From a virus, in the IMG/VR virus record IMGVR_UViG_3300020735_000075, positions 1 to 20,046 of that record: 20,046 bases of DNA; one strand, given 5' to 3'. The notes below the pieces were generated by a model. The model was not told the DNA's origin. It ran no database searches and saw only the letters and a list, made by a program, of their open reading frames with translations. Positions 1,877-19,931 of the stretch are shown here, piece after piece (positions within the stretch are counted from its first letter, which is position 1; every line of letters begins with the position of its first letter). Position numbers and translations under genes: made by a program.

Positions 1877-4669
1877 ATGTCAGCAAATAACGCAACAATA
1901 GTTCAGATTAGACGAGGTAATACGGCACAAACGGCTGCCTATACCGGAGCACTTGCGGAACTTATTGTTGATACAGACCAAAATACAATCGTTGTTCAAG
2001 ATGGTACCACACAAGGCGGTAACTATCTCATTTCTAAAAGCCAATTCAATGCCAATGTATCTTATCTTTTAGGTATTGATGGTGTTCAAAATACAGCAAT
2101 TCAAGTAGCAAATACCACAGCAAATAATGCTTCTGCTAATACCATAGCACTTCAAGGTGCAATGACTTCCGCAAACGCCAATATTGTGGCTTTGTTTGCT
2201 ATTGATAATGCTCAAAACACTAGTATTACTAATACTCTTACATTTGCTAACTCAGCATATAATCAAGCTAACATAGCTTACATTGTTGCCAATAATGCTT
2301 ATAATTTAGCAAATACAGAATCGAGTTATACTTTTGCCAATGCGGCCTTCAACACCGCCAACTCAGCACAAGCAAATACAATTGCATTACAAGGTGCGAT
2401 GGCTACGGCCAATGCCAATATTGCTTATATTCTAGCGGTTGACGTTGGTCAAAACACAGCAATCACCAATACCACTACATTCGCTAATGGTGCATATAAT
2501 ACGGCAAATAGTGCTTCATCAAATACTGTAGCACTTCAAGGTGGTTTAAATACCGCTAACGCAAACATAGCGTATATTCTGGCAGTAGATATTGGTCAAA
2601 ACACTAGTATTACTAACACCACTACATTTGCCAACGGTGCTTATAATACTGCTAACTCTGCTCAAGCTAATACGATTGCACTCCAAGGCGGTCTCAATAC
2701 TGCTAATGCAAACATAGCGTATATTCTTGGTGTTGACTTAGTTCAAAACACAGCAATTACAAATACGACTACTTTTGCTAACGGTGCCTACAATACAGCC
2801 AATTCAGCTCAAGCAAACACGATAGCATTGCAAGGTGGTCTTAATACTGCCAATGCTAATATTGCTTATATTCTTGCCGTTGATTTGGCACAAAATACGG
2901 CCATTACTAGTGCAAACAATTTAGCCGCTAGTGCAGCTGCTGCAGCAAATACTAAATTACCTTTATCTGGCGGTACTATTACCGGCGATTTAGTTGTTAA
3001 TGCAAACTTGACAATTACTGGCACAACATTCTATGCTAATACACAATTAGTTGATGTTGCAAATAATAATCTTATTTTAAATGCTAGTGTATCATCAACA
3101 ACTGCACCAACACAAAACGTATACATTACTATTGACCGTGGTAATCAAGCAAACTCTCAGATTATTTGGTATGAAGCGGCAAAGAATTGGTTGTTATATA
3201 ACGGAACAACTTCTGATTATGTTGCTACTTATTCAAACATTGCAGCGGTACAAGGCGGTCTCAATACTGCTAACTCAAACATTGCTTACATTTTAGCCGT
3301 TCAAGGTGTTCAAAATACTGCAATATCTACCGCAGCATCTAACACAGTTGCTTTACAAGGTGGATTAAACACCGCCAATGCTAATATAGCCTATATTCTT
3401 GGCGTAGACTTAGCACAAAATACGGCTATATTATCGGCTTCAGCAAATACCATTGCTTTGCAAGGTGGGTTGAATACTGCTAATGCCAACATAGCATACA
3501 TTCTTGGTGTCGATATTGGACAAAATACTGCAATTACAAATACAACCACTTTTGCCAACGGTGCTTATAATACTGCTAATAGTGCGTCTGCTAATACGAT
3601 AGCACTCCAAGGTGGCTTGAATACCGCAAATGCTAATATTGCTTATATTTTGGCAGTTGATGTTGGTCAAAATACGGCCATTACTAATACAACAACATTC
3701 GCCAATTCGGCATATAACCAAGCCAATTTGGCATACATTGTGGCAAATAATGCTTACAATTTAGCCAATACAGAATCAAGTTATGTCTTTGCTAATGCAG
3801 CTTTCAATACTGCAAATAGTGCTCAAGCAAATACTATTGCTTTACAAGGCGGTCTTAATACTGCAAATGCTAATATTGCTTATATCTTAGGTGTTGACTT
3901 AACACAAAATACAGCAATTCAAGTAGCAAATAATACTGCCAATATTGCCAACGCTAGAGCATATTCAACAGTATTAAAAGCTGGCGATACAATGACCGGT
4001 TCTTTACAGATTACTGGTTCAACATCAAATGTAGCCGTTATACAAAGTTCATTAACACAAGATATAGCTGCAACTTATAATCATTCTTCAGTTGGTTTTA
4101 TTACAACGGCAAATACTGACCAATTTTTCCAAGCTGGTATTCAAAACTTTGCCAACACATCAAACTCGTCTATTGACTTCTCCATATATAATAATGCAGG
4201 TACCGATTCAAATAATTTCTTAGATGTTGGTATGTTGGGTACCTCATATAATGTGGTATTAAATCAATTTACGGCTGCATATGCTGGCGATGCATATGTT
4301 TATACAAATACAGCAAACTTAATTATTGGTACAGACACACCAAATAAATCATTAAAAGTGATGATTGGTGGTTATCTTGCAAATAATATATCTGCAGTAT
4401 ATAATGCAGCCAATACTGCTTCATCATCAAATACAACCGGTACCTTAACTATTACCGGTGGTGTTGGTGTAACAGGTAATGTATACTCAGATAGAATTTA
4501 TACCAATGGACTATATTACGCTGCTAATGGTAGTCCAATTTCTACTGGTGGTGGTTCAGTAACTCTTAGCGATTCTATTTCATCAAATTCATCCGCCAAT
4601 GCGGCTACTTCTAATGCTGTTTATATTGCTGTATCAACTGCGTTGGCTTACTCGATTGCGTTAGGATAA
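1877..4669 (+). CDS. Large repetitive tail fibre protein
   Basis: This is a 930-residue fibre-like protein. Residues 1-60 (TIVQIRRGNTAQTAAYTG...AELIVDTDQNTIVVQDG) match the N-terminal attachment pattern of phage fibres and parallel the start of the preceding gene. Residues about 90-355 and 456-690 form two blocks with ten copies in all of a unit containing TANANIAYIL, separated by QNTAITNTTTFANGAYNTANSA-type linkers. Between the blocks, at about 360-455, lies a distinct beta domain (LSGGTITGDL...VDVANNNLILN...). After block two comes GDTMTGSLQI and a non-repetitive C-terminal domain (about 695-930) that probably holds the receptor-binding and trimerisation regions. The ribosome site is weak (GGAAAAG). 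A TATAAATA late motif lies just upstream. The fibre role is confident; which of several fibres it is remains unknown. Confidence 0.88.
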   Translation: MSANNATIVQIRRGNTAQTAAYTGALAELIVDTDQNTIVVQDGTTQGGNYLISKSQFNANVSYLLGIDGVQNTAIQVANTTANNASANTIALQGAMTSANANIVALFAIDNAQNTSITNTLTFANSAYNQANIAYIVANNAYNLANTESSYTFANAAFNTANSAQANTIALQGAMATANANIAYILAVDVGQNTAITNTTTFANGAYNTANSASSNTVALQGGLNTANANIAYILAVDIGQNTSITNTTTFANGAYNTANSAQANTIALQGGLNTANANIAYILGVDLVQNTAITNTTTFANGAYNTANSAQANTIALQGGLNTANANIAYILAVDLAQNTAITSANNLAASAAAAANTKLPLSGGTITGDLVVNANLTITGTTFYANTQLVDVANNNLILNASVSSTTAPTQNVYITIDRGNQANSQIIWYEAAKNWLLYNGTTSDYVATYSNIAAVQGGLNTANSNIAYILAVQGVQNTAISTAASNTVALQGGLNTANANIAYILGVDLAQNTAILSASANTIALQGGLNTANANIAYILGVDIGQNTAITNTTTFANGAYNTANSASANTIALQGGLNTANANIAYILAVDVGQNTAITNTTTFANSAYNQANLAYIVANNAYNLANTESSYVFANAAFNTANSAQANTIALQGGLNTANANIAYILGVDLTQNTAIQVANNTANIANARAYSTVLKAGDTMTGSLQITGSTSNVAVIQSSLTQDIAATYNHSSVGFITTANTDQFFQAGIQNFANTSNSSIDFSIYNNAGTDSNNFLDVGMLGTSYNVVLNQFTAAYAGDAYVYTNTANLIIGTDTPNKSLKVMIGGYLANNISAVYNAANTASSSNTTGTLTITGGVGVTGNVYSDRIYTNGLYYAANGSPISTGGGSVTLSDSISSNSSANAATSNAVYIAVSTALAYSIALG
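2140..2925 (+). repeat. Fibre repeat block I (five units)
   Basis: This block encodes five copies of a unit centred on (S/T)ANANI(A/V)...(A/G)(V/I)D-x-x-QNT. The first copy is degenerate (NIVALFAID). Copies are joined by TTTFANGAYNTANSAQANTIALQGG linkers. A variant insert (IAYIVANNAYNLANTESSY...) follows copy one. The peptide is nearly constant while codons vary between copies. Confidence 0.85.
3240..3935 (+). repeat. Fibre repeat block II (five units)
   Basis: Five further copies of the NANIAYIL(A/G)V unit follow a separate beta domain. The IAYIVANNAYNLANTESSY insert of block I recurs here between copies nine and ten. The similar arrangement suggests that an ancestral block was duplicated, or exchanged by recombination. 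Confidence 0.85.
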
Positions 4670-6395: not shown

Positions 6396-7055
6396 ATGAA
6401 TATTTATTACACTTATGCTTATATAAGAAAAAATGGAACACCATATTATATTGGTAAAGGAAAAGAAAATCGAGCTTGGACTAACCATAAAATACACGGT
6501 ATAATTACTCCAAAAAATAATAACAGAATAGTTATATTGGAATCCAATTTAACTGAGATTGGCGCTTTGGCTCTAGAAAGAAGAATGATTAAATGGTGGG
6601 GACGAAAAGATTTGGGTACCGGTATTTTATATAATAAAACAGAAGGTGGAGAAGGAACTTCAGGATATTCACATACAAAGTTATCAAAAATAATTATGAA
6701 AGAATATAAAATTAATAAACCTTTATGTAAAACCCATTGCAATAATATTTCAAAAAGTCTTATTGGTAATACCAGAGCTCTAGGTCATAAACACACAAAA
6801 GAAACTTTATTAAAAATTAGTAATTCAAATAAAGGTAAAAAAAGAAGTAAACAAGTAAAACAAAATATAAGCAATTCTTTAATAGGAAAAAATTATATTG
6901 ATTTACATGGTGAAGAAAAAGCAAAAGAAATTAAAAATAAATTAAGTTTAAGTAAAAAAAATATGCCTCAAAAAACTTGTATACATTGTGGAGTCACAGG
7001 AAAAGGCAGTAATATGACCAGATATCATTTTAATAATTGTAAAAAGAAGATATAA
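6396..7055 (+). CDS. GIY-YIG homing endonuclease with NUMOD3 repeats and zinc finger
   Basis: This 219-residue protein carries a GIY-YIG nuclease domain at about residues 4-85: TYAYI (6-10) and YYIGKG (17-22) are the signature strands, Arg26 and Glu61 are the likely catalytic pair, and Asn80 lies before TEGGEG. Residues about 118-190 contain NUMOD3-type DNA-binding motifs ([13 protein letters not shown], then [12 protein letters not shown]). The C-terminus has a Cys/His zinc-finger pattern with Cys195, Cys198, His211 and Cys215. This layout is typical of free-standing phage homing endonucleases. The gene is visibly more A-rich than its neighbours, which suggests later arrival. It separates genes 14 and 15, and its TAA overlaps the gene 15 ATG by one base (TAATG). 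No intron is implied, since both flanking genes are intact. Confidence 0.93.
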
Positions 7056-12649: not shown

Positions 12650-13198
12650 ATGACATTCAATGTAGCAGAATTTAGAGCAAATATGATTGGTGACGGTGCT
12701 CGTCCCAATCTATTTCAAGTGACTCTAACATTACCACAGTTTGCTAATAATGCAACCGCTGCAGGTCAAAAATTGCAATTTATGGCAAAAGCATCACAGT
12801 TACCAGGTTCAACCGTTGGTCAAGTTCCAGTTTACTACTTTGGTCGTGAAATGAAATTTGCCGGTAATCGTACCTTTGCTGACTGGACATTACAGATTAT
12901 TAACGATGAAGATTTCTTGATTCGCAATTCTATGGAATCTTGGATGAGTGCTCTTAATAGTCACGCAGGCAATGTTCGCAGTGCTTCGGCAACAAGTCCA
13001 ACAAGTTATACAGTTGATGCAACAGTTACTCAATATGGTAAAACTGGCTCAGCAATTAACACATATAAGTTTGTTGGTATGTTCCCGTTAGATGTAGCGC
13101 CAATTGATTTAGATTGGAGTTCAAATGATACTATTGAAGAATACTCAGTAACATTTGCATACCAATACTGGACAAATACTGCATCAACAGACGCTTAA
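12650..13198 (+). CDS. 19: Tail tube protein gp19
   Basis: This 182-residue protein follows the sheath gene and reads as the T4-type tail tube subunit. It starts FNVAEFRANMIGDGARPNLFQVTLTLP and has KLQFMAKASQLPGSTVGQVPVYYFGREMKFAGNRTFADWTLQI. It then has EDFLIRNSMESWM and a C-terminal strand region ending YSVTFAYQYW. The SQLPGSTVGQVPV and GREMKFAGNR strands are family hallmarks. Hexamer rings stack into the tube that conducts DNA. T4 gp19 is 163 residues. AGGAG at 12639-12643 lies six bases before the ATG. A hairpin terminator follows immediately, closing the 18-19 tail unit. Confidence 0.94.
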   Translation: MTFNVAEFRANMIGDGARPNLFQVTLTLPQFANNATAAGQKLQFMAKASQLPGSTVGQVPVYYFGREMKFAGNRTFADWTLQIINDEDFLIRNSMESWMSALNSHAGNVRSASATSPTSYTVDATVTQYGKTGSAINTYKFVGMFPLDVAPIDLDWSSNDTIEEYSVTFAYQYWTNTASTDA

Positions 13199-13261: not shown

Positions 13262-14866
13262 ATGGCAGCTAATAAATTCTCTCTTTTTGGTTTTACAATT
13301 GCACGGAAGCAGGCCAATGATGACCAAGCTGTGCAACAATCTTTTTCGCCTCCATCAAATGACGATGGCGCTTTAACGATTACCTCAGCAGCATATTATG
13401 GAACATATGTTGACTTAGACGGTACTGCCAAAAATGAAGTAGAACTTATCTCTCGTTACCGTGAAATGGCTATGCAGCCAGAAATTGAATCAGCGATTGA
13501 CGATATCGTTGGTGAAGCTATTTGCCAAGATGACGATGGCAAAATTATTCAAATTGTTCTGGATGATTTAAAGCAACCAGAAAAAATCAAAAAAGCCATT
13601 AAAGACGAATTCTCTACGATTCTTCGTATGCTGAATTACAACAACATGGCACAAGATATTTTCCGTAGATACTATGTTGATGGTAAGATGTATTACCACA
13701 TCATTATTGACCGTGAAAATCCTACTCAAGGCATTAAAGAACTTCGTTATATTGATCCACGCAAACTTCGTAAAGTGCGTGAAATGAAAAAGAAAAAAGA
13801 TGAACGCACTGGTGTGGAGGTAATGAACGTTGTTAACGAATATTATATTTTCAATGATAAGGTTACTACTGGTTCTTCATCTAATTTTGGACCAGTTGGT
13901 GTTCGTATTACCACAGATTCTATTATTTCCGTTGTGTCTGGTCTTATGGATTCTCGTAGAGCTGTCGTATTGTCTTATCTTCATAAGGCTATAAAACCAC
14001 TCAACCAGTTAAGGATGATTGAAGATGCTACTGTCATCTATCGTATTAGCCGTGCCCCTGAGCGCCGTATTTTTTACATTGATGTGGGTAATTTACCTAA
14101 ATTAAAGGCAGAACAATACCTCCGTGATATTATGGTAAAATACAAGAACAAACTTGTATATGATGCTAACACAGGTGAAGTTCGTGATGACCGTAAATTC
14201 TTGTCTATGATGGAAGATTTTTGGTTGCCACGCCGTGAAGGTGGAAAAGGTACCGAGATTTCTACATTACCTGGTGGTCAAAACCTTGGAGAGTTAGAAG
14301 ATGTTAAGTATTTTGAAAAGAAACTATACAAAGCATTGAATGTTCCTGTTTCTCGTTTAAATCCAGAATCAGCAGGTTTTACTCTTGGTCGCACCAATGA
14401 GATTACCCGTGATGAATTAAAGTTTGCTAAATTTGTTGACCGTTTGCGTAACAAATTTGCTGACTTGTTTGACCAAGCATTAAGAGTTCAGTGCGTTCTT
14501 AAAGGTATTTGTACCAATGAAGAATGGAACGAATTCAAAGAACATATCTATTATGACTTTATTAAAGATAATAACTTTACTGAATTAAAAGATGCGGAAT
14601 TAATGAAGGAACGCCTTGGATTGTTAAGTCAGGTTGATCCTTATACAGGTCGTTATTTTTCTCAAGCTTGGATTCAGCGTCAAGTTTTACGCTTGACCGA
14701 TGACCAAATCAAAGAAATGCAATCTGAAATTGATGAAGAAAAAGAAATGGGTCTTGGTTTACCAGTTGGTGTAGGTAATGAAGTGGCACAACAGATGATG
14801 ATGTCTAATGTACCAAAACAACCTGAAGGTCCAGCTGGTGATGAAGAAGATGAAGCAGATGAATAG
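13262..14866 (+). CDS. 20: Portal vertex protein gp20
   Basis: This 534-residue protein is close in length to T4 gp20 (524). Recognisable segments include VELISRYREMAMQPEIESAIDDIVGEAI (about 60-87), YYVDGKMYYHIIID, LRYIDPRKLRKVREM, a crown/stem stretch with YRISRAPERRIFYIDVGNLPK, FWLPRREGGKGTEISTLPGGQNLG, and VPVSRLNPE with FTLGRTNEITRDELKFAKFV. The C-terminus is acidic. A dodecameric gp20 ring initiates prohead assembly, receives the gp16/gp17 motor and later binds gp13/gp14. No strong Shine-Dalgarno sequence is seen (only GGAT at 13248-13251). There is also no exact late motif in the 63-base gap, so expression may come by read-through of the upstream terminator. Confidence 0.97.
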   Translation: MAANKFSLFGFTIARKQANDDQAVQQSFSPPSNDDGALTITSAAYYGTYVDLDGTAKNEVELISRYREMAMQPEIESAIDDIVGEAICQDDDGKIIQIVLDDLKQPEKIKKAIKDEFSTILRMLNYNNMAQDIFRRYYVDGKMYYHIIIDRENPTQGIKELRYIDPRKLRKVREMKKKKDERTGVEVMNVVNEYYIFNDKVTTGSSSNFGPVGVRITTDSIISVVSGLMDSRRAVVLSYLHKAIKPLNQLRMIEDATVIYRISRAPERRIFYIDVGNLPKLKAEQYLRDIMVKYKNKLVYDANTGEVRDDRKFLSMMEDFWLPRREGGKGTEISTLPGGQNLGELEDVKYFEKKLYKALNVPVSRLNPESAGFTLGRTNEITRDELKFAKFVDRLRNKFADLFDQALRVQCVLKGICTNEEWNEFKEHIYYDFIKDNNFTELKDAELMKERLGLLSQVDPYTGRYFSQAWIQRQVLRLTDDQIKEMQSEIDEEKEMGLGLPVGVGNEVAQQMMMSNVPKQPEGPAGDEEDEADE

Positions 14867-14880: not shown

Positions 14881-14903
14881 TTTGAATACTTTAGGAGAAA
14901 ATG

Positions 14904-15116
14904 ATGCCGGATTACTCAACTCGCAATATTATTGATTACGCCATGGATGATAATGGTGTAGAATTTCGTAACGCTTTGTATGACAATATTCATGCAAAAG
15001 TATCAGCTCATTTTGAGTTGGCCAAACAAAACATGGCTCAAAATATGTTGGATGATGAAGAAACACAAGAAGAACAAGAAGAACAACAAGCTTCGGAAGA
15101 TTCTGGCCAAGAATAA
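14904..15116 (+). CDS. 67: Small acidic prohead core protein, gp67-like
   Basis: This is a 70-residue protein. Its first half (STRNIIDYAMDDNGVEFRNAL, then AHFELAKQNMAQNML) is helical, and its last third is almost all Glu, Gln and Asp. The place directly after gene 20 and the small size with an acidic tail fit T4 gp67, a prohead core protein that is cleaved by gp21. An in-frame ATG at 14901 is possible. The second ATG is preferred because AGGAG (14893-14897) is six bases before it, the spacing used by most strong sites here, and only three bases before the first. LDDE near the acidic tail resembles a gp21 cleavage site. Homology to gp67 rests on context and composition more than on sequence identity. 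Confidence 0.65.
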   Translation: MPDYSTRNIIDYAMDDNGVEFRNALYDNIHAKVSAHFELAKQNMAQNMLDDEETQEEQEEQQASEDSGQE

Positions 15117-15153: not shown

Positions 15154-15702
15154 ATGGCAAACAAATTTACATATCAAGTATTGAGAGATACAACAACAGA
15201 CGCTATTATTAAATTAACAGGTCAGTTTGATGGTACTTCAGGAAATGAAGCAAACAATGCTCGTATTCAAGCAAATACTTTGTATGGTGCTTTGGATGCA
15301 AATAGTGTGCCATTAAGAAGTTCTTTAAGTGTTAGCAATACTGCGTTACCTTATTATAATTTACAAGTAACTGGAGCACAATACTACGTAAGTATGGGAA
15401 CTTCAACTCCTCCTGGTTCCGTTGAATTATTTTGGGCAGGTAACACCACATCAAACAATGCAACTATCTTCTATTTGAACGGTAACGGTGAATTTGGTAG
15501 CCAACAAAATCCTGCTATTCCAAATAACGCTATCAATCCAAATGGAAATTTAGGAATTAATACTTACGGCGTAACTGCAAATACAGCATATACTTTAATT
15601 GTATCGTTAAGAAAAGACAACGCACATTATCAACGTGGTCAGTTTAATGATCCTGCTGCATTTAACTATGGTTCGTATGCTATTACTGGCGTTAAGCAGT
15701 AA
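15154..15702 (+). CDS. Putative head-associated structural protein, beta-rich
   Basis: This 182-residue protein is rich in Asn, Thr, Ala, Gly and Tyr with short alternating hydrophobic strands, so mostly beta structure is likely. The first segment (FTYQVLRDTTTDAIIKLTGQFDG) and the late segment (AYTLIVSLRKDNAHY) resemble, from memory, an uncharacterised structural protein found near head genes in T4-like cyanophages. No catalytic motif, signal peptide or membrane segment is visible. No LxE-type gp21 site is seen near its N-terminus, unlike core and internal proteins here, so an outer capsid decoration role is possible but unproven. Its own CATAAATA motif and AGGA (15144-15147, six bases before ATG) suggest strong late expression, as expected for a virion component. 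Confidence 0.75.
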   Translation: MANKFTYQVLRDTTTDAIIKLTGQFDGTSGNEANNARIQANTLYGALDANSVPLRSSLSVSNTALPYYNLQVTGAQYYVSMGTSTPPGSVELFWAGNTTSNNATIFYLNGNGEFGSQQNPAIPNNAINPNGNLGINTYGVTANTAYTLIVSLRKDNAHYQRGQFNDPAAFNYGSYAITGVKQ

Positions 15703-15704
15703 TA

Positions 15705-15995
15705 ATGTTAACCTTCAAAGAGTTTCTGCTAAATGAAGGCGTAGTTCAAAAAATTGGCAGAAAAAGAATTGTTAGAGTTCGTGTAAGAAAAGGTAAGATA
15801 CAAAGAAACAAAACTTTTTCTAACCAGCCAGGTTGGACAATTCGTAGTGGAAAATTAGTTCGTATGTCTTATCGTGAACGTAGAGATAGACAGTTAAGTG
15901 CTAAAAGAAGTAAATTTAAAAGGTTGGCTAAAATTAAGCAAACAATTAGAAAAAGAAAAACATCTTTAAGAAAAAGAGGCGCATTAGGAATATGA
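15705..15995 (+). CDS. Very basic internal head protein candidate (gene 68 position)
   Basis: This is a 96-residue protein. The first 11 residues, MLTFKEFLLNE, resemble the capsid-targeting leader of T4 internal proteins (MKTYQEFIAE-type). They end in L-N-E, which fits the gp21 protease preference for Leu/Ile-x-Glu. After cleavage at Glu11 the remaining 85 residues contain 32 Lys or Arg and only two acidic residues, giving a strongly DNA-binding character. No zinc site or enzyme motif is visible. It lies between the gp67-like gene and protease gene 21, the place of T4 core gene 68, and its stop overlaps the gene 21 ATG as ATGA. It could be a diverged gp68, or an internal protein packaged with DNA. 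Function is inferred from leader, charge and context. Confidence 0.8.
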   Translation: MLTFKEFLLNEGVVQKIGRKRIVRVRVRKGKIQRNKTFSNQPGWTIRSGKLVRMSYRERRDRQLSAKRSKFKRLAKIKQTIRKRKTSLRKRGALGI

Positions 15996-16636
15996 AACTC
16001 ATCAAAGAAATTCAAGAAACGGTAAATTATATTACCGAAGGCGCAGACGGCAAAAAAGAACTCTTTATTGAAGGTCCTTTCCTTGTTTCTGAAAAGAAAA
16101 ACAAGAACGGTCGTCTATACGAATACAATACGATGAAGAAAGAAGTTCATCGTTATACAGAAGAATACATTAATAAAAACCGTGCTTTTGGTGAATTAGG
16201 TCATCCTGAAACACCAACCATCAATCTAGACCGAGTATCTCATCTTATCGTAGGACTCAGAGAAGATGGTACACAATGGATTGGTAAAGCAAAAATTCTA
16301 GACACACCTATGGGTCAAATCGCTCGTCAATTGATTGAAGGTGGCGCCCAATTAGGTGTTTCTTCTAGAGGTATGGGTTCATTGAAAAATGTTAACGGTG
16401 TTAATGTTGTTCAGAACGATTTTTATCTAGCCACAGCGGCAGATATTGTAGCAGATCCTTCTGCGCCTGGAGCGTTTGTTCAAGGCATTATGGAAGGAAA
16501 AGAATGGGTATTAATAAATGGTGTTTGGACAGAACAAGATATCTCATATGCTAAGGCTCAAATTAAACAAGCCTCCAGAAAAGATATTGAATCTGTAAGT
16601 CTACGCATTTGGGAAAACCTAGTCAAAAAACTTTAA
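15992..16636 (+). CDS. 21: Prohead core protease gp21
   Basis: This 214-residue serine protease of the T4 prohead type (herpesvirus-assemblin-like fold) cleaves scaffold, internal and capsid proteins before DNA packaging. Conserved elements are SEKKNKNGRLYEYNTM (about 33-48), GELGHPETP with the likely catalytic His71, and LGVSSRGMGS with Ser124/Ser125. ATAADIVADPSAPGAFV follows, with Asp155 a further conserved acid. The length is close to T4 gp21 (212). An ITE at residues 14-16 could be a self-processing site. The ATGA overlap with the basic protein gene implies translational coupling. Confidence 0.96.
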   Translation: MKLIKEIQETVNYITEGADGKKELFIEGPFLVSEKKNKNGRLYEYNTMKKEVHRYTEEYINKNRAFGELGHPETPTINLDRVSHLIVGLREDGTQWIGKAKILDTPMGQIARQLIEGGAQLGVSSRGMGSLKNVNGVNVVQNDFYLATAADIVADPSAPGAFVQGIMEGKEWVLINGVWTEQDISYAKAQIKQASRKDIESVSLRIWENLVKKL

Positions 16637-16673: not shown

Positions 16674-17960
16674 ATGGGAAATTTTAACCTGTCCGATGCC
16701 GCTAAGTCAATCTTGCTAGGCGAGGATTCCAAGTCAACTTTTGATGCCAATATCGCTTCCAAAAAAGGTCAGCGTGGCTCAGATAAACATCCACACGGTG
16801 AAGTTGGTGCAGACCGTTTAGCATCTAAGACCGCTTACGGTACTAATGATGCTGGCGAAATTGGCCAATCACCAGAACGTGCTTTGACAGACGAACTGCC
16901 TAATTACACTAAAGGTGTTCCATCAGCAACTCCTCCAGGTGCTACTCCTCCTGTTGGTTCAGAAAAAGATGGTGTAGGCGCTACTAAGGCAACTGGTCCA
17001 CAAGATTCTATGGGTCGTTCCGATATTGCTAATCCAGTTAAATCTGATGCAACACCATACGAAGCAATTCGTGACCGTATTGCTGGTAAATTAGCACCAC
17101 AAATGATGCAAAAGAATCCAGGCGCTACATTCCAGTCTTATGGCGAAGAAACAGAAGCCGATGACACAGTAATTTCCGAAGAGGAAGAAGAAAAAATGAT
17201 GAAGAAAAAAATGATGCAAGACAAAATGAAAGAAAAGATGAAAGAAGATATTGATGCTCTTTTGTCTGGCGAAAATCTTTCTGAAGAATTTGTCACCAAA
17301 GCATCTACCATTTTTGAAGCTGCCGTTATTGCTCGTGCAGAAGAAGTTATTGCCGAATCTGAGCAAGAGTTGATGGAACAATTTGAAGTTGCCGTAGAAC
17401 AAATTAAAGAAGATATGGCTGCTAAGGTTGACGATTACCTCAACTACATGGTAGAAGAATGGATTAAAGATAATCAAATTGCTGTTGAGTCTGGTCTCCG
17501 TGCTGAAATTGCTGAAGATTTCATGGCTGGTCTCCGTGATTTGTTTGTTGAACACTACATCGACGTTCCATCTGAGAAAATTGATATTGCTGAAGAATTA
17601 GCTGCTAAAGTAGAAGAATTAGAAGCTGCTTTGAATGAGCAAATCAACAAAGGTATTGAACTTACAAAAGATTTGAACGAACAGAAAAAAATTGAGGCTA
17701 TCTACACAGCGTGTGAAGGCCTGACGCAGACTCAAGTAGAGAAATTAAAAGCACTTGCAGAAGGTGTGGATTTTACTACTGAACAAGAATTTGTAACTAA
17801 ACTTGACACTTTGAAAGAATCATATTTCAAAGCGGATGTTAAGGTTGCAGACGCATCTGCTTTTGAAGAAGTGTTAGTTGAAGATGAGAAAAAACAAGTT
17901 TTCGCTGATCCTTCAATGGAAGTATATGCAAAAACCATTTCACAAACTTTGGTTAAGTAA
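16674..17960 (+). CDS. 22: Prohead core scaffold gp22
   Basis: This 428-residue protein is the major scaffold around which gp23 assembles. It lies between genes 21 and 23. Residues about 1-160 are low-complexity, Gly/Pro/Ala/Asp-rich, including PPGATPPVG. Residues 168-192 are a run of Glu then Met/Lys-rich sequence. From 195 on it is helical and acidic, containing LSEEFVTKASTIFEAAVIARAEE, the most gp22-like part, and later coiled-coil heptads (ELAAKVEELEAALNEQ). It is much longer than T4 gp22 (about 269), mainly through the N-terminal extension. LGE at residues 15-17 is a potential gp21 cleavage site, and the core is normally degraded to small peptides. AAGGAG lies nine bases before the ATG. 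Confidence 0.93.
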   Translation: MGNFNLSDAAKSILLGEDSKSTFDANIASKKGQRGSDKHPHGEVGADRLASKTAYGTNDAGEIGQSPERALTDELPNYTKGVPSATPPGATPPVGSEKDGVGATKATGPQDSMGRSDIANPVKSDATPYEAIRDRIAGKLAPQMMQKNPGATFQSYGEETEADDTVISEEEEEKMMKKKMMQDKMKEKMKEDIDALLSGENLSEEFVTKASTIFEAAVIARAEEVIAESEQELMEQFEVAVEQIKEDMAAKVDDYLNYMVEEWIKDNQIAVESGLRAEIAEDFMAGLRDLFVEHYIDVPSEKIDIAEELAAKVEELEAALNEQINKGIELTKDLNEQKKIEAIYTACEGLTQTQVEKLKALAEGVDFTTEQEFVTKLDTLKESYFKADVKVADASAFEEVLVEDEKKQVFADPSMEVYAKTISQTLVK

Positions 17961-17992: not shown

Positions 17993-19327
17993 ATGTATTT
18001 GACAGAAGAACTACAAAAGAAATGGCAACCTGTTCTGGAGCATCCAGAATTAGAAGCCATTAAAGACCCATACAAGAAAGCTGTTACAGCTCTTGTTTTG
18101 GAAAACCAACACCAAGCAATGGCTAAAGACCGTCAGGCTTTGATGGAGACCAGCGATACAGGTCCTACAAACGTTACTGGTGGTGTTCAGAACTTCGACC
18201 CAATCTTGATTTCTTTGGTTCGCCGTTCATTGCCTAACCTCATCGCTTATGATGTTGCTGGCGTTCAACCAATGACTGGTCCTACAGGCTTGATTTTTGC
18301 AATGCGTGCTCGTTACGCTAACCAAACTGGTTCTGAGGCATTCTACAACGAAGCAAACACAATTTTCTCTGGTCAATCCTCTGCAAATGGTGGCTTCAAC
18401 AACTACGGTTTTGCTGGTAACTCCGGTACAGATACATCTAACAATGCTATCTCTAACGAAGCAGCTAACTCATTCACAACTGGTATTGGTATCCAAACAG
18501 CTTCTGCTGAATATTTGGGTGCTGACTCTGCTAACGTGTTCCAACAGATGGCATTCTCTATTGAGAAAGTTACTGTAACTGCACAAAGCCGTGCCTTGAA
18601 AGCTGAATACTCATTAGAACTCGCACAAGACTTGAAAGCAATTCATGGTCTTGATGCAGAAACAGAATTGTCTAACATTCTGTCTACTGAGATTCTTGCT
18701 GAAATCAACCGTGAAGTTATCCGTACCATTTATAGCTCTGCTGTTTTGGGTGCTCAATACGGTACAACAACTGCTGGTTATTTCGACTTAGATACAGACT
18801 CCAATGGTCGTTGGTCTGTTGAGCGTTTCAAAGGTTTGATTTTCCAAATCGAGCGTGACGCTAACGTGATTGCCAAGCAAACTCGTAGAGGTAAAGGTAA
18901 CGTATTGATTGTTTCATCTGACGTAGCATCTGCAATGGCTATGGCTGGTGTTCTTTCTTACACTCCTGCTCTTCAAGCTGACCTTCAAGTTGATGATACT
19001 GGCAATACATTTGCTGGTTTGTTACATGGTCGTATCAAGGTTTACATTGACCCATACTTTGGTGGCTATGCTGCTAACCAAGAGTTGGTAACAGTTGGAT
19101 ATAAGGGTTCTTCTCCTTATGACGCTGGTTTGTTCTATTGCCCATACGTTCCATTACAAATGGTTCGTGCAGTAGACCAATTTACATTCCAACCAAAGAT
19201 TGGTTTCAAGACTCGTTACGGTATGGTTGCAAACCCATTTGCTCAAGGTTTAAATCCAAGCAATGGTATTCTGACACCACGCAGCAACGTTTATTACAGG
19301 ATTTTTGGTGTCAAAAACCTCATGTGA
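17993..19327 (+). CDS. 23: Major capsid protein gp23
   Basis: This 444-residue HK97-fold major head protein of the T4 type carries the hallmark regions: FDPILISLVRRSLPNLIAYDVAGVQPMTGPTGLIFAMRARY (about residues 69-109) and FSGQ near 124. Further on are AEYSLELAQDLKAIHGLDAETELSNILSTEILAEINREVIR and the C-terminal GSSPYDAGLFYCPYVPLQMVRAVD...KTRYGMVANPFA. The first 52 residues form a delta/scaffold-like leader ending LME, a probable gp21 cleavage site giving a mature chain of about 392. T4 gp23 is cleaved after Glu65 of 521. AAAGGAA at 17981-17987 serves as ribosome site. Codons look more uniform and GC-richer at third positions than in the fibre genes, fitting high expression. A strong terminator follows. 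Confidence 0.98.
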   Translation: MYLTEELQKKWQPVLEHPELEAIKDPYKKAVTALVLENQHQAMAKDRQALMETSDTGPTNVTGGVQNFDPILISLVRRSLPNLIAYDVAGVQPMTGPTGLIFAMRARYANQTGSEAFYNEANTIFSGQSSANGGFNNYGFAGNSGTDTSNNAISNEAANSFTTGIGIQTASAEYLGADSANVFQQMAFSIEKVTVTAQSRALKAEYSLELAQDLKAIHGLDAETELSNILSTEILAEINREVIRTIYSSAVLGAQYGTTTAGYFDLDTDSNGRWSVERFKGLIFQIERDANVIAKQTRRGKGNVLIVSSDVASAMAMAGVLSYTPALQADLQVDDTGNTFAGLLHGRIKVYIDPYFGGYAANQELVTVGYKGSSPYDAGLFYCPYVPLQMVRAVDQFTFQPKIGFKTRYGMVANPFAQGLNPSNGILTPRSNVYYRIFGVKNLM

Positions 19328-19355
19328 TAAAAATCACCGTAGAGTGATATTTGAG

Positions 19356-19383
19356 AGAGACCGCTTCGGCGGTCTCTTTTTTT
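19356..19383 (+). terminator. Strong UUCG-loop terminator after gene 23
   Basis: A nine-base-pair stem, AGAGACCGC (19356-19364) with GCGGTCTCT (19369-19377), closes on a stable TTCG tetraloop. A run of seven T (19377-19383) follows. A small upstream hairpin (ATCAC at 19333-19337 with GTGAT at 19344-19348) may add protection to the capsid mRNA. It ends the head-gene transcription unit. Confidence 0.95.
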
Positions 19384-19387
19384 ATGG

Positions 19388-19395
19388 CCTAAATA
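19388..19395 (+). promoter_or_regulatory. Late promoter-like motif CCTAAATA
   Basis: CCTAAATA matches six of eight late octamer positions. The 14 bases from 19390 are identical to those in the gene 18 leader. It directly follows the gene 23 terminator, so a new start here is sensible. It is only a few bases from the proposed ATG, which would give a very short leader. Confidence 0.45.
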
Positions 19396-19400
19396 TCCGT

Positions 19401-19931
19401 ATGACAGCACTAACCAGACAGCCACAGAATACCAATCTCCTCCAACCGACAAAGTTTATAATGACTTTTGCGAGGATACCTACGGTTCAATACTTCTGCC
19501 AAGCGGTAAATATACCAGGGGTTCAACTAGGACAGGCCCCATTGAATTTTCCCGGTGTAGATGTATATGCACCTGGTAATAAGATGATGTATAATCAATT
19601 AGCATTGACTTTTACTGTTGATGAGAAGATGCAAAACTGGCAAGAAATACATGGTTGGTTCCGTTCCATCGCATCTCCAGAAGGCACGGATGAAAGAAAT
19701 AGGTTATCATCACAACAGAATCCTACCAAAACTAGAGGTCCTAAAGCCTATTCTGATGCCACCTTGACAGTTCTTTCGGCATTGAATAACCCATTGTTTC
19801 GTGTTCACTATATCAATTGTTTCCCTATCTCTCTTTCGGATATTATGTTTGATACCAAGCAATCCGCAGATGATATTATTACCGCCGATGGTGTATTCAT
19901 GTTTGATTATTTTAATTTTGAAACCGCTTGA
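19401..19931 (+). CDS. Tail completion protein, gp3-like (tail-tube fold)
   Basis: This 176-residue protein follows a pattern shared by tail tube and tail-tube-terminator proteins: an N-terminal strand PTKFIMTFARIPTVQYFCQA, then VNIPGVQLGQAPLNFPGVDVY, LALTFTVDEKMQNWQEIHGWF, a loop with TDERNRL, a central TLTVLSALNNPLFRVHYINCFP, and the C-terminal strand FMFDYFNFE. Length and layout agree with T4 gp3, which caps the tail tube before gp15 binds. In several T4-like phages gene 3 lies near genes 23 and uvsY, recalled from memory. The frame is open upstream to an ATG at 19305 inside gene 23, but that start would read through the terminator hairpin, so 19401 is preferred. No Shine-Dalgarno sequence is evident, so another start is possible (19461). 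Confidence 0.65.
   Translation: MTALTRQPQNTNLLQPTKFIMTFARIPTVQYFCQAVNIPGVQLGQAPLNFPGVDVYAPGNKMMYNQLALTFTVDEKMQNWQEIHGWFRSIASPEGTDERNRLSSQQNPTKTRGPKAYSDATLTVLSALNNPLFRVHYINCFPISLSDIMFDTKQSADDIITADGVFMFDYFNFETA

Follow-up and report, generated by a model that had tools for sequence, protein, structure and literature searches.

The 96-aa protein encoded immediately upstream of the gp21 prohead protease gene in a 20-kb IMG/VR virus fragment (the window, that is, the whole stretch of 20,046 nucleotides analysed) is best explained as a diverged gp68 of a far-T4 virus. With a probability of roughly four in five, judged on sequence comparisons and structure predictions, this would be a core protein with a swapped leader, cut once by gp21 and providing a DNA-contacting basic peptide in the head. 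The gene is a variant of a known part, gp68, and not a new kind of system. An earlier note on this DNA had presented it primarily as a separate internal head protein of the T4 IPI-III type and had kept a strongly diverged gp68 as a fallback. The mature part of the protein belongs to the gp68 prohead core family, and it is the fallback, backed by a chain of profile comparisons (probabilities 95.5 and 96.7) and by gene order, that is retained here.

Genomic setting and conservation of the gene

The window carries genes in the order 20-67-(one gene)-68-21-22-23, which is that of the T4 head block (Table 1). The gene under study lies between portal/gp67 and gp21, in the place of gene 68, with one extra gene between 67 and 68. 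A 2-base gap separates it from this upstream ORF. On its other side, the ATGA overlap previously noticed with a protease gene is present, the neighbour being an S77 protease (PF03420), and the link to prohead assembly drawn from it finds support in the sequence.

Table 1. Features of the gp68-like gene and of the surrounding head block in the window.
Feature	Positions	Strand	Basis
gp20 portal	13262..14866	+	PF07230
gp67-like acidic prohead core protein, 71 aa	14901..15116	+	phrog_1064 E 9e-4; profile comparison
182-aa protein between gp67-like and gp68-like genes	15154..15702	+	kept in relatives
gp68-like prohead core protein gene, 96 aa	15705..15995	+	open ORF, ATG start, TGA stop
Leader MLTFKEFLLNE, capsid-targeting-type propeptide, 11 residues	15705..15737	+	direct reading; T4 IPI/II/III leaders; modular occurrence
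Predicted gp21 cleavage site N10-E11|G12 (motif L9-N10-E11)	15732..15740	+	conserved P1 Glu; motif position statistics
Predicted mature basic domain, residues 12-96	15738..15992	+	pI 12, calculated charge about +30
Predicted small beta-sheet region, strands 13-17, 20-28, 31-39, 44-47, 50-53	15741..15863	+	AlphaFold2
Predicted long Arg/Lys-rich C-terminal helix, residues 56-94 (39 residues)	15870..15986	+	AlphaFold2, 10-residue-block pLDDT >90
ATGA stop/start overlap with gp21	15992..15995	+	direct reading
gp21 prohead protease, peptidase S77	15992..16636	+	PF03420 E 1.5e-31; phrog_207 E 5.5e-75
gp22 scaffold	16674..17960	+	PF25623
gp23 major capsid protein	17993..19327	+	PF07068

The 96-aa ORF is a real gene, and its conservation extends over hundreds of uncultured T4-like viruses. 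A first scan of IMG/VR yielded 47 relatives, with a protein identical to that of the window in four other contigs. In a second scan, 411 of the 425 pattern matches encoded relatives, of which the best 80 were kept, and 84 distinct complete members were extracted from the loci. The nucleotide differences between close relatives fall mostly at third codon positions. In the inspected loci, the members lie upstream of gp21 and after the genes of the gp67-like and unknown proteins, with the exception of L331, where the unknown-protein gene is located between the family gene and gp21. In nearly all relatives, the gene of a conserved 170-200-aa protein separates the gp67-like gene from the gp68-like one, small proteins occupy a similar place in phages Mosig and Melnitz, and the 182-aa protein of the window has no family match in PHROG or Pfam.

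The DNA of the gp21-gp23 region is nearest to that of Methylophilales, Pelagibacter and Synechococcus/Prochlorococcus phages, so the virus is placed in a Kyanoviridae-like lineage; this far-T4 lineage is apparently mostly freshwater. By tblastn against isolated phages, the window protein has no match and its relatives have one, in Pseudoalteromonas phage XG4. In this phage (L093:1697-2800), the gp68-type basic domain constitutes the C-terminus of a 367-aa ORF spanning the whole portal-gp21 gap. Elsewhere in the window, a homing-endonuclease-like ORF (6396-7055; phrog_314 E 1e-11, weak NUMOD3) lies between the neck-protein and tail-sheath-stabiliser genes, a second tail-tube-like gene (19305-19931; phrog_45 E 1e-34) follows gp23, the other one being at 12650-13198, and a 930-aa repetitive protein with SANTIALQGGLNTANANIAYIL repeats and an Mtd_N domain (PF18454, E 2.6e-9) is encoded at 1877-4669.

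Relationship to gp68

The window protein has no match in Pfam or NCBIfam, and its best PHROG match reaches only E 0.037. Compared directly, the similarity to T4 gp68 is weak and restricted to the last ~40 residues. A first test of the family against T4-type gp68 gave a probability of 53 and hhalign gave 65.7 (score 29; best shuffle 15.8), while the basic domains taken separately scored 26.5 (highest of 100 shuffles 16.2). The connection becomes strong through a bridge set of 89-108-residue proteins whose genes precede gp21 in Ackermannviridae, pf16 and Vibrio K442; these proteins are annotated as 'head scaffolding' or gp68-like, and depositors name them gp68. In hhalign, the family matches this set with a probability of 95.5 (E 1.5e-8, score 47; best of 60 column shuffles 17.6) and the set in turn matches T4-type gp68 with 96.7 (E 3.9e-10, score 54.8; best shuffle 15.9), each E-value referring to a single pairwise comparison. 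The sequences compared are basic and of low complexity. The shuffles, the reversed profiles, which gave no match, and two unrelated basic leader-bearing families used as controls, which stayed at probability <0.3 with background scores, argue against an artefact of composition. Of the families named in the earlier note for a profile search, gp68 was matched, strongly by way of the bridge and weakly by the direct route; the window protein had no match to an internal-protein family in PHROG. The phrog_3503 profile, which apparently represents the Ackermannviridae/pf16 gp68 family, detected over whole records T4 gp68, ZPAH1 gp68, two Vibrio gp68, the homologue in XG4 and a single contig of the family, each at the place of gene 68, some of these matches reaching only E 0.01-0.04 and T4 giving in addition one weak off-target place.

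With T4 gp68 (phrog_1049), the window family shares its place before gp21, a basic C-terminal domain ending in K-R-[KR]-[AS]-[LM]-G-L, and an [LIV]xE just ahead of this domain with no [LI]xE within it; the C-terminal helix region of the window protein aligns with the T4 C-terminus. It differs by its 11-residue targeting leader, where T4 gp68 has its own acidic N-terminal domain of ~67 residues. This acidic part defines the T4 type only and not the whole gp68 family, because the N-terminal part is also short in the gp68 of Ackermannviridae and pf16. The latter ('head scaffolding protein') is itself short (89-105 aa), directly precedes gp21, shows PG[FY] and, after this motif, a conserved E/R/G.R stretch, and has in some cases a TFADFL-like segment in its short N-terminal part. 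Identity is low, however, at 26% over the 66 aligned columns, the N-terminal parts are unlike, and the Cys of CxPG, present in the bridge proteins, is missing from the window family.

The mature part of 85 residues holds 32 Lys/Arg and two acidic residues, exactly as first counted, and its calculated charge of about +30 compares with +23 for residues 68-141 of T4 gp68. The AlphaFold2 model of the window protein (mean pLDDT 84.5, pTM 0.56) consists of a small sheet followed by a long helix, and that of a longer relative (88.5 and 0.52) of a helical propeptide followed by the same sheet and helix. For both models, the top viral fold match carries the name 'Prohead core protein' (E 1.3e-4 for the short form, 6e-6 for the long form), and searches of the PDB by sequence and by fold returned no significant solved structure. 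The gene is filed as gp68 because the bridge matches on both sides, the gene-68 place is occupied and the fold match is to a prohead core protein.

Leader exchange and predicted cleavage site

The first 11 residues, MLTFKEFLLNE, had been likened to the leaders of T4 internal proteins, and the likeness holds, the counterparts being MKTFKEF... in IPI and MKTYQEFIAE|A in IPII and IPIII. In T4, gp21 cleaves after L/I-x-E, and the first ten residues of IPIII are enough for entry into the head (PMC9026906). Among 1047 distinct ORFs from loci chosen independently of the leader, 14 matched a leader-plus-site pattern composed after the matched leaders had been seen; these were the 12 short-form members together with T4 IPII and IPIII. 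A DNA-pattern scan detected M-[LK]-T-F-K-E-F starts on dozens of distinct proteins of viral contigs, with E|[AGSDN] at residues 7-16 in 105 of the 147 distinct ORFs of at least 60 aa bearing such leaders. To judge by these occurrences, the leader looks like a modular address tag. The carriers of M[KL]TFKEF leaders (loci L104-L343) include several small proteins of basic character and one of 412 aa that has a KWDGAPAI motif.

Most members of the family are longer, with 130-153 aa, and carry the same basic domain behind a helical N-terminal part of ~45-65 residues (MxxFVSKLLSNNLVEAR...) that is followed by a gp21-type site. This propeptide matches the N-terminal domain of gp67 (probability 95.8, E 6.6e-9, score 42.7; best of 60 shuffles 11.8) and has no homology to the T4 gp68 N-terminus (probability 0.6%); none was found either between the T4 gp68 N-terminus and gp67. 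Its presence in most relatives was not visible to the earlier note. Unlike the long forms, T4 gp67 has an acidic tail and no basic domain; the window protein is devoid of the gp67-like part, and a separate gp67-like gene is present in the window.

The window clade comprises 12 distinct short sequences in which MLTFKEFLLNE or a near variant stands in place of the gp67-like propeptide, with the predicted cleavage site at the same place as in the long forms. In the tree, this clade (support 100/97) is sister to the long form L055 and nested among long forms, so the swap is most simply read as long to short. There are two further short forms, L150 (MFTFKEFISE|GN) and L331 (MNLDFLLDFLRE|A). L150 is placed apart from the window clade by the tree, and a single clade is not rejected by the AU test (p 0.136); because of this value and of the long branches of L150 and L331, the tree does not fix the number of swaps. 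It is conceivable that an internal deletion in the long form made the leader out of its first helix, since both begin with MxxF; the DNA of the long and short forms holds no clear trace of such a deletion. A neighbouring capsid-targeting gene of the long-form relatives (DPPAVLIMKRKS protein) was considered as a candidate donor. Most long-form relatives contain a further small gene whose product has a leader of the capsid-targeting type (MKTFSQFMTE, MKTLKEVLSEG; L046:1919-2140, L048:3115-3324, L041:2493-2708) followed by DPP-x-x-LIMKRKSIRQFPN-x-QRVALYYVDKI; this gene is absent from the window.

The proposal that the leader closes on a gp21-type LNE site is supported at the level of the motif. 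A match to [LIVMF]xE|[AGSNDQ] lies 5-9 residues ahead of the basic core in 71 of the 84 members, and at 10 in seven more, where shuffling of the N-terminal parts (200 trials) gave a mean of 7 and a maximum of 14; the count is inflated by the kinship of the members, although their leaders have little else in common. Conservation of the P1 Glu reaches at least 90%, and a clear site is lacking in three to five of the 84. The T4-type gp68 compared also have [LIV]xE directly ahead of the basic domain (PLNE|FIVKHV in T4, LNE-67; residue 61 in KP13, where a pattern match further upstream is due to chance). No further [LI]xE occurs in the mature domains of the 84 family members or of ten T4-type gp68, as compared with 3-6 in each T4-type propeptide and about four in those of the long forms; this absence is weak, supporting evidence, since the mature domains hold very few Glu.

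Fate of the basic domain and meaning of the exchange

In the preferred reading, the leader would dock the gp68-like protein on the gp22 core while the prohead assembles. Once active, gp21 would make a single cut after LNE-11, and a ~10-kDa peptide with a charge of about +30 would be freed inside the head, where it would most likely bind or neutralise the incoming DNA. A share in head-size determination is likely, because gene 68 affects head length in T4; work cited in a review (PMC2984593) describes an altered head shape in T4 gene 67 and 68 mutants.

A lasting role on DNA fits poorly with the report that T4 gp68 is degraded by gp21 and not essential (PMC9958956). The protein could instead be a transient scaffold only, its basic peptide leaving the head or being degraded after cutting, with no DNA role. 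This is a substantial possibility, if a less probable one: gp21 breaks T4 gp67 and gp68 into small peptides that mostly exit the head (PMC9958956, PMC9026906), but no part of the protein is better conserved than the mature domain, which contains no further [LI]xE in 94 of 94 sequences and carries its high charge. It is unlikely that the protein is a true ejected internal protein like T4 IPI-III, the short leader having made a core protein into cargo that enters the host with the DNA. Its short targeting sequence ending in a single predicted gp21 site is of that type, such leaders are modular on many proteins of viral contigs, and the whole mature domain would survive one cut; the mature part is nevertheless homologous to gp68, the same domain is found in long forms behind a gp67-like propeptide, and no homology to IPI, IPII or IPIII was found as far as tested, the IPI* structure reaching only E 2.1 in the fold search. 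Two relatives weakly match phrog_2667 'internal head protein' (best E 0.018). That the gene codes for some unrelated small, basic binder of DNA or RNA and lies before gp21 by chance is compatible with the absent Pfam and NCBIfam matches and the marginal PHROG score but highly improbable in view of the gene-68 place kept in the inspected relatives, the profile chain and the prohead-core fold match. The sequence data would place a retained DNA-contacting peptide somewhat ahead of a disposable scaffold, and ejection behind both. A bolder proposal, which is doubtful, is that this clade traded its gp67-like core-building domain for an internal-protein tag and turned gp68 into an ejected DNA-condensing protein; by extension, the basic gp68 domain would across the T4 superfamily be a DNA counter-ion retained in the head and not a disposable scaffold.

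The retained gp68 assignment also bears on the cyanophages, from all of which gp67 and gp68 were reported missing (PMC2984593). A pooled gp67-like set (P-SSM2 PSSM2_132, S-SSM5 SSSM5_123 and the 71-aa gp67-like protein of the window, 14901-15116) matches T4-type gp67 with a probability of 96, which suggests that P-SSM2, S-SSM5 and relatives do possess gp67-like proteins. A gp68-like protein before gp21 was seen in none of the Kyanoviridae-type records inspected and is widespread in the lineage of the window. Despite the reported absence, gp68 is thereby placed in a cyanophage-like (far-T4) lineage.

No description of a gp67-like propeptide on gp68, or of its exchange for an internal-protein-type leader, was found in the open-licence literature. 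The scan for M[KL]TFKEF leaders offers a means to list candidate packaged or ejected proteins. The exchange itself suggests that gp68 is a two-part protein, in which an exchangeable core-docking propeptide is joined to a conserved basic domain. Two questions become testable through this natural swap: the docking partner of the capsid-targeting peptide, and a continued association of the basic gp68 half with the DNA.
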